64,000 bases of DNA, from positions 1 to 64,000 of the forward strand of contig PFGG01000070.1 of NCBI GenBank assembly GCA_002783405.1, written 5' to 3'. Shown in pieces: positions 44,966 to 47,746 of the stretch. Source of the DNA: a bacterium (Candidatus Blackallbacteria) CG13_big_fil_rev_8_21_14_2_50_49_14. Lineage in GTDB: Bacteria > Cyanobacteriota > Sericytochromatia > UBA7694. Position numbers and translations under genes: made by a program. How positions within the stretch are numbered: the first letter of the stretch is position 1; each line of letters begins with the position of its first letter. The notes below the pieces were generated by a model. That model was given only the letters and a program-made list of their open reading frames with translations, was not told the origin of the DNA and did not search any database.

Positions 44966-45617
44966 TGCTCCCCAGAAACCGGACAGTGAAAGCGTGAATT
45001 TAAGTTCCTGATCTGAGAGATTAAGACTCAGAGAGGAAAATTATGAAAAACAGAAGAAGACACTCAGCAGAAACTAAGACCAAAGCCGTTTTAGAGGCAT
45101 TAAAAGAAGACCAGACCCTAGCAGAAGTGGCAGCAAAATATGAGGTTCACCCCAAATTGCTGGCCCAATGGAAACAAGAATTCCTGGAAAAACCCTCAGT
45201 CGCAGGCGACAACGGAGCCGTGCGAAAGAGGAGAGCATTGATGCCATCACAGTGTTCAACCGCAAGAAAAAAGAGAAAGACATTGAGGCCGATTTAAAGG
45301 AAAAAGATAAGGTTATCGAAGAGCTTTACAAAGAGGTTGGCCAGCTCACCCTTGAAAGAAATTGGATCATTAGACAATATTTTCATTGAACGCTGGTTTC
45401 GCAGTCTCAAACACGAAGACCTATATCTCAAAGACTACCAAAATGTATTGGAATTGCAGGTTGGAATCAAGCACTATGTCCAGTTTTACAACCAGAGGAG
45501 GTATCACCAAGCTTTAAACTATAAAACACCCAATCAGGTTTTTTATGCAGACTGTAACACGTTTTCAGGACAGGGAGTTAATGTTGCGTGATTTACTGTC
45601 TTGACGAAGGGGAGCAC
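44966..45617 (+). mobile_element. Decayed IS3-family insertion sequence
   Basis: About 650 bp bounded by TGCTCCCC (44966) and GGGGAGCA (45609-45616), imperfect terminal inverted repeats that also share GACAGT and AA further in. It contains a frameshifted orfA and only the end of orfB. Flanking TAT on both sides may be a remnant 3-bp target duplication, with 1 nt of uncertainty. It lies 16 bp from the hicAB operator. Confidence 0.85.
45043..45591 (+). pseudogene. IS3-family transposase remnant (orfA/orfB)
   Basis: OrfA starts KNRRRHSAETKTKAVLEAL with the expected helix-turn-helix, then shifts frame near 45223 (continuing AKEESIDAITVFNRKKKEKD in another frame). After LTLERNW the middle of orfB is deleted. 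The last 80 codons encode the orfB C-terminus (DNIFIERWFRSLKHEDLYL, then YNQRRYHQALNYKTPNQVF). The first two catalytic acids of the DDE domain are gone, so it cannot move itself. Confidence 0.9.
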
Positions 45618-46756: not shown

Positions 46757-46982
46757 TCTAGCTTCTGATCCTCATTGAATTTATAGATTTATTTTTAAGG
46801 GGCTGGCCAGCCTGTTGAGACTATACCCAAAGAAAATAAATTGTAAACAAATATGAAGAAATATTTATTTATACTTTTTTCATTTAAACAGATTTTCGCA
46901 TCAAACCCAGGGCCAGCCTTGTTTTTTTTAAAAAACAAAATCAAAAATATTAATTTAATCATAATTTTTTCACAACCAAACC

Positions 46983-47012
46983 TTGACATTCATAACCAAA
47001 TCTTAGTATCTT
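46983..47012 (+). promoter_or_regulatory. Promoter of the large structured RNA
   Basis: TTGACA (46983-46988) and TATCTT (47007-47012) are 18 nt apart. Transcription would begin about 47019-47021, exactly where the closing stem of the RNA starts. The -35 is consensus; the -10 matches 4 of 6. Confidence 0.65.
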
Positions 47013-47019
47013 GATATCA

Positions 47020-47746
47020 CGAACTTCGGTGAAGCGAAGAAACGTAACAAACGGTCCGGGTGAAACGCCCGGAGAAAAACCCAGGAGGGGTGGCGGTTCA
47101 CGCAAGTGAGCAGATGCCGGTCTCGACCCGGGGAGCAAAACCTGAGAGCCGTCAAAACGGAAAGCAGGGAACCGGCTGGAAGCAGCGGGAAGCTCCGGGC
47201 AGAAAGAACTCCCTGAAGGGTGAACGCCCAAGAGGGTCAAGGTTTTTCCTTGCGGAAAAACACACGAACTGTTCGGAACACTGTCCCGTGTGGACAAGAA
47301 CCGCTGAAGTCTCGGCTCAGGTGCGCAAGTGCTTGAGGAAAAAGGCAGGAGCGGCCGGCACTGGCAACAGCAGCCAACGAACAGGGAGTGCAAAACCCTG
47401 AAGGGGCTAAGGACGAGAGGGAATCGGGCGCGCAAGCGCAACGGATCCGCATTAAGGGAAAAGCCCTGCAGTCGTAAAAACGGCAAGAGGGAAACGATTG
47501 GAAGAAGCTGCAAGGTTTGTTCCGGTGCACTTAAAGCGGGGGAAAATCCCTGAGGGTCCGGCAAGAAGCCTGAAGAGGGATCTCTGCAAAGAGATAACTA
47601 CTTCCAGAAAAGACGTCAGGAGCGTAACCAAACGCTGGAGATGTCAGGGTCCTGAAAATGGAGTCACCCGGCTGGAAGTCGTGAAGACCTCAGGAGGTCG
47701 CAGGACGTGGTAATTCGCTTCAAAACCGGAGTTTGTACTATTTTTT
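47020..47746 (+). ncRNA. Large ornate structured RNA, family not recognised
   Basis: About 720 nt, GC-rich and purine-rich in an AT-rich gap, with no credible protein. The ends pair: CGAACUUCGGU (47020-47030) with ACCGGAGUUUG (47725-47735), then GAAGCGAA (47031-47038) with UUCGCUUC (47714-47721), leaving a 3-nt AAA bulge; 19 pairs in all. U6 follows at 47741-47746. Internal hairpins include 47055-47073, 47096-47111 (GCAA loop), 47242-47261 (8 bp), 47261-47292, 47316-47337 (9 bp, GCAA), 47428-47439 (GCAA), 47580-47595 (GCAA) and 47631-47646. Modules of GGG, A-rich linker, CCCUGA recur. No RNase P, tmRNA, group I or group II hallmark was recognised. Strand is set by promoter and U-tract. Confidence 0.85.

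Follow-up and report, generated by a model that had tools for sequence, protein, structure and literature searches.

To our knowledge, few giant bacterial RNAs have been described, and none has a settled function. OLE RNA has the protein partners OapA, OapC, and bS21, whereas ROOL is carried by phages and prophages, frequently close to tRNA islands, and GOLLD is phage-associated. All three assemble from RNA alone into dimers or cages, held together by A-minor contacts and kissing loops; OLE dimerizes in vitro through A-minor contacts, ROOL forms an octameric nanocage, and GOLLD a 14-mer cage (PMC12286853). The RNA described here shares some traits with each of them. OLE (~600 nt) is likewise highly structured and chromosomally encoded, but it is served by the dedicated proteins OapA and OapC, while the present RNA occurs in multiple copies, consists of tandem modules, has no recurrent neighbor, and shows no Rfam similarity. 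ROOL (~660 nt) is similarly ornate and has no known protein partner, yet it is encoded by phages or prophages, and the present RNA has neither a match to the ROOL model nor kissing-loop covariation. Many GOLLD members exceed 800 nt and fold into many helices, although they are phage-associated and differ in sequence and structure from the present RNA, which has no Rfam match. Sponge RNAs of the CsrB/RsmZ type also carry many repeated hairpins on one molecule; in contrast, the present RNA is far more complex and conserves internal purine loops and GNRA loops rather than single-stranded GGA loops.

The window analyzed is a 64,000-nt stretch of contig PFGG01000070.1 from a Candidatus Blackallbacteria genome (GCA_002783405.1). 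Photosystem-I-bearing cyanobacteria are present in the phylum and none in the window's own class, which makes the host a non-photosynthetic member of the cyanobacterial phylum, probably one of the Sericytochromatia. Positions 47019–47746 on the + strand are, with near certainty as to class, a stand-alone gene specifying a large (~720 nt), structured noncoding RNA that belongs to a new class. In the features listed below, R1 denotes a covariance model built from module M1 alone and R3 a model built from M1–M3 of nine copies.

46983–47012, + strand: putative promoter (TTGACA, 18 nt, TATCTT), 10/12 consensus, conserved in other copies despite unrelated flanks
47019–47746, + strand: RNA gene, from the predicted start A47019 to the U6 tract, with end-to-end homologous copies in five genomes and a consensus structure
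47019–47038, + strand: closing stem P1, 5' arm (helices 1–2)
47042–47046, + strand: inner helix P2, 5' arm (helix 3), pairing with 47704–47708 across a GAA / NNNAA loop
47053–47074, + strand: hairpin h4, before module 1 (helix 4)
47079–47221, + strand: module M1 (helices 5–13); R1 159 bits, R3 89.8 bits
47227–47405, + strand: module M2 (helices 14–21); R3 64 bits, E 2.3e-13, this module not having been used to build R3
47406–47562, + strand: module M3 (helices 22–29); R1 match at 47396–47573, 40.9 bits, E 1.4e-8
47568–47698, + strand: module M4, diverged in sequence (helices 30–37); R3 13.5 bits at 47615–47643, the next-best match after M1–M3
47704–47708, + strand: inner helix P2, 3' arm (helix 3)
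47714–47736, + strand: closing stem P1, 3' arm, with an AAA bulge at 47723–47725 (helices 1–2)
47741–47746, + strand: U-tract (U6), presumed transcript end, 4 nt after the stem, recurring in nearly all copies

A first-pass annotation of this DNA had proposed a structured RNA with paired ends, a promoter, and a U-tract of its own, and inspection of the ends agrees with that description. TTGACA (46983–46988) and TATCTT (47007–47012) precede A47019, which lies 7 nt downstream of TATCTT, and the AT-rich stretch upstream of the promoter (~46940–46982) is also conserved in close copies. Other copies show TTGAC and then a −10 element ~6–7 nt before an ACGAAC-type start, while their upstream flanks differ; every full copy that was checkable has its own TTGAC promoter at a constant distance from that start. 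The stem joining both ends, with its AAA bulge, proved one pair longer than first described (47019–47029 with 47726–47736 and 47030–47038 with 47714–47722), and the U6 claimed to follow it is in place. The rise in GC content over the flanks was likewise confirmed, at ~0.57 within the gene vs. 0.29 immediately upstream and ~0.46 downstream. Fold energy against shuffles gave z = −6.5 on the + strand and −3.1 on the − strand. The longest + strand ORF of the window copy encodes 113 aa, and the copies differ by numerous indels and pair-preserving changes; the RNA is therefore considered noncoding, consistent with the earlier view that it holds no credible reading frame.

DNA searches revealed additional copies in the same genome, and each of the four other sequenced members of the family also proved to carry the RNA. 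With R2, a covariance model built on the central domain, at least 6 sites were located in this genome, 10 in that of a congener, and 7, 1, and 1 in genomes of three other genera. R2 gave no match in 13 further genomes of the class, and the RNA did not appear elsewhere in a sample of 292 genomes from the phylum, so that the host range, confined to one family, represents few independent lineages. Contigs end inside copies of the RNA at G000:C10:1 and G000:C7:126771 in this genome and at the ends of G001:C29 and G001:C31 in the congener. Assemblies thus seem to break at the RNA repeat, and the true copy numbers are probably higher. Both the multi-copy state and the internal duplication described below had escaped the first-pass annotation.

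Rfam 15, searched over the window at gathering thresholds, returned no match for the RNA; the models include OLE, ROOL, GOLLD, HEARO, raiA, group I and II introns, RNase P, tmRNA, and 6S. Relaxing the search to E 10 for the window copy gave nothing relevant, only two irrelevant sub-threshold matches, and a further dozen copies searched up to E 0.5–1 gave no match. The same cmscan material did yield a tRNA. The setting of ROOL and GOLLD is absent, with no phage genes among the neighbors examined and no match in phage records, and so is that of HEARO, OMEGA, and retron RNAs, with no adjacent reverse transcriptase and no nuclease of the IscB/IsrB/TnpB type among the flanking genes scanned. A group II intron is not indicated either, given the lack of an Rfam intron match and of a reverse transcriptase among those same genes. 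At several hundred nucleotides, with many covarying helices, no coding capacity, and a predicted transcription unit of its own, the RNA belongs with the large ornate noncoding RNAs. The suggestion that it might be a new class is supported by the lack of an Rfam match, the homologues in five genomes, and the strong covariation, and there was no sign of a degraded intron or a coding gene.

An RNAalifold consensus of 22 copies contains 189 pairs in 37 helices with 13 apical loops, exceeding the nine hairpins initially noted as a minimum. Covariation in the homologues, which had been named as a check, is overwhelming: 134 of the 189 pairs show two-sided changes, and the covariation score reaches 0.465, compared with 0.196±0.005 for shuffled alignments and 0.06–0.12 when partners are slid, a sliding control that is biased towards the structure because the structure itself came from the alignment being scored. 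Paired cells amount to 92.8% vs. 77.5% after shuffling and 35–47% with partners slid, although such cell counts are inflated by the close paralogues that make up part of the alignment, and the number of covarying pairs is the sturdier figure. An earlier fold, based on 17 copies and lacking the terminal stem, led to a matching result. Each of the 22 copies with a located 5' start is predicted to form the closing stem, despite extensive compensatory change, and the stem persists even where its inner part is of wholly different sequence. An equivalent stem could be read by eye in a further diverged copy (L063, 6.7–7.3 kb). A mutual-information search outside the nested structure disclosed no pseudoknots or kissing loops; its only signals came from isolated pairs of columns or prolonged known helices.

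Within the closing stem lie a single hairpin and four modules in tandem, all four sharing one topology. Each module begins with a closing helix bearing a GAA/ARG-type 3x3 loop, followed by hairpin a, which is variable and often GCAA-capped, and a helix b that holds hairpins c and d; hairpin c carries a similar GAA/ARG-type purine loop. Purine loops of this 3x3 type occupy eight equivalent positions in the RNA. Hand matching of the GAA/ARG loop to kink-turn and loop-E motifs gave no fit, and the loop was left unnamed.

The relationship among the modules emerged when R1 unexpectedly also matched the middle of the same RNAs, scoring 40.9 bits in the window copy and reaching 58.6 bits in diverged ones, the latter being the highest score of this M1-only model against M2 and M3. 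R3 recovered three modules in every copy searched, including ~16 copies left out of the model, and M1–M3 are by covariance model judged homologous. M4 was the next-best R3 match in L233 (25.4 bits, E 1e-4), L230, L063, L075, and the window copy, with a weaker match in L079, L076, and L078; its homology to M1–M3 rests mainly on the shared topology. A 25-bit match on contig 14 of this genome was rejected as apparent coding sequence.

The apical loop of hairpin d is a GNRA tetraloop in at least 20 of 22 copies in M2 (GUAA, GUGA, GCAA, GAAA, GCGA) and in 19 of 22 in M3 (GAAA, GCAA, GUAA), whereas in M1 it is GAAG in 21 of 22. Changes of letters within the GNRA class are a usual sign of tertiary docking. 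The reading we prefer, to which we give about an even chance, is that of a free-standing ornate RNA of a new class, abundant, and acting as an RNA-based structural or scaffolding particle by a mechanism like that of OLE, ROOL, or GOLLD, though it belongs to none of these three families. The RNA would be transcribed from its own strong promoter, and several gene copies would probably make it abundant. It may then fold through loop–receptor contacts and perhaps self-assemble into a particle as those RNAs do. Self-association is put forward as a hypothesis, since no loop–loop covariation was detected, and the function need not be shared with the cage formers, as ROOL and GOLLD are phage-linked and the present RNA is not. 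The fuller proposal, in which a terminal stem draws four homologous tandem modules into a ring and the RNA, carried as a multi-copy gene family, forms an RNA-only particle with neither protein partner nor phage link, would be a new RNA architecture, and we advance it tentatively.

If borne out, this would add a new and independent class to the few known giant bacterial RNAs, three of which were recently recognized as RNA-only assemblers (PMC12286853). With one to ten copies per host genome, dosage, redundancy, and paralogue divergence become directly readable. The tandem build offers a case of how a very large RNA fold arises via internal duplication, as in repeat proteins, and its four naturally repeated units make a clean structural target.

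The main rival is a multivalent scaffold or sponge, in which a single host protein would be bound in several copies by the repeated hairpins of the modules and so sequestered or organized; we consider this unlikely, though a serious candidate. RNAs of the CsrB type act in this way on CsrA, and OLE RNA binds partner proteins. Such a role would suit an RNA in which three to four hairpins c resemble one another, share a GAA/ARG-type loop, and are often capped by a CAAA-type loop; the strong promoter and several gene copies would likewise fit a titrating RNA, and at three loci a TPR/coiled-coil protein family is encoded close to the RNA. However, in many copies M2 and M4 have variable extensions in place of the apical loop of hairpin c, the conserved parts are GNRA loops and internal loops typical of tertiary contacts, and no partner gene recurs beside most copies.

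The genomic context also bears on the preferred reading of a free-standing RNA. Copies sit between unrelated genes, with neighbors and orientation varying from copy to copy, and no recurrent neighbor gene was found at the loci examined. Some placements are shared between species: the window copy and G001:C56 both lie between the same transporter and methyltransferase genes, and flanks are common to G000:C65 and G001:C8 and likewise to G004:C637 and G002:C122. The class is thus a small gene family with some members at orthologous sites. Within one genome, copies at unrelated sites are 88–98% identical, with identity stopping at the AT-rich promoter region and the U-tract, and internally deleted relics (L066:10704–10884, termed L066b, and L071:8750–8805) have kept both the promoter and the gene's 3' end. 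These copies and relics indicate that the family also duplicates actively, and they are what a non-autonomous mobile-element RNA, or a ribozyme aiding its own spread, could leave behind. That origin is nevertheless improbable, as inspection of the flanks revealed no target-site duplications or inverted ends, no adjacent reverse transcriptase was found, nuclease genes do not recur, none of the group I or II intron models matches, and several copies have stayed at orthologous sites as vertically kept genes do.

A long untranslated region, 5' or 3', that regulates a neighboring gene would fit the intergenic position, but it is highly improbable, since the gene downstream of the window copy lies on the opposite strand, neighbors and orientation change from copy to copy, and the promoter and U-tract are both part of the RNA. 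Chance structure, a decayed gene, or an assembly artefact, for which the open but unconserved frames on both strands might speak, is of negligible probability and is refuted by the copies in five genomes and the consensus covariation, with the kept closing stem also speaking against it.

Several observations concern the surroundings of individual copies. Transposase fragments (HTH_Tnp_1 and rve domains in a broken frame) lie near the RNA at 45043–45591 of the window, and transposase ORFs are absent from the orthologous locus in G001 (L067). At L068:1814–5166, two 98%-identical copies stand in tandem around an AAA-ATPase-like/PDDEXK_9 gene. The TPR/coiled-coil proteins mentioned above are weakly similar to one another (L061:8397–9002, L069:14173–15078, and L076:2419–3411) and form a possible partner family of the RNA. 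A padloc run over ten genes of the window returned nothing beyond a methyltransferase-domain match and a single weak match, and a role in a defence island was set aside as no defence system surrounds the gene. The neighboring amino-acid permease has relatives in other phyla by contig scan, with nothing bearing on the RNA.

A possible relative was found outside the family, at L269:2281–2643 (IMGVR_UViG_3300038164_000012). This contig encodes an RNA-phage replicase up to ~2.2 kb, after which an abruptly GC-rich tail resembles module 1 (R1 33.5 bits, R3 38.3 bits) and contains an exact 19-base stretch of the RNA family; Rfam gave nothing on the tail. These scores belong to a contig preselected by a 15-base pattern, and the chance level of R3 reaches 34 bits in ~600 genomes of other phyla. 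R3 matches of 34.2 and 28.8 bits in sampled genomes of two other phyla were rejected as chance, lying in apparent protein-coding regions, and 120 matches to a permissive 17-base viral pattern were also judged chance. The contig is probably a chimeric metatranscriptome assembly joining a distant relative from a high-GC organism. An RNA-phage genome can be sequenced from RNA only, so the tail, if chimeric, is probably RNA-derived too, which would indirectly indicate that the relative is transcribed in another organism.

A 45-nt insert, CGCCTCAGTCGTTGGTGACGCAAGGAACCTTACGAATGAGGACAG, is identical at different loops of two paralogues (L069:10881–10925 and L068:2520–2564), and related forms occur in the relic at L071:8721–8743 and in G004 (L077, ~2500–2910). 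A pattern scan of the five genomes that carry the RNA located the insert only inside copies of the RNA, as if loop extensions were swapped between sites.
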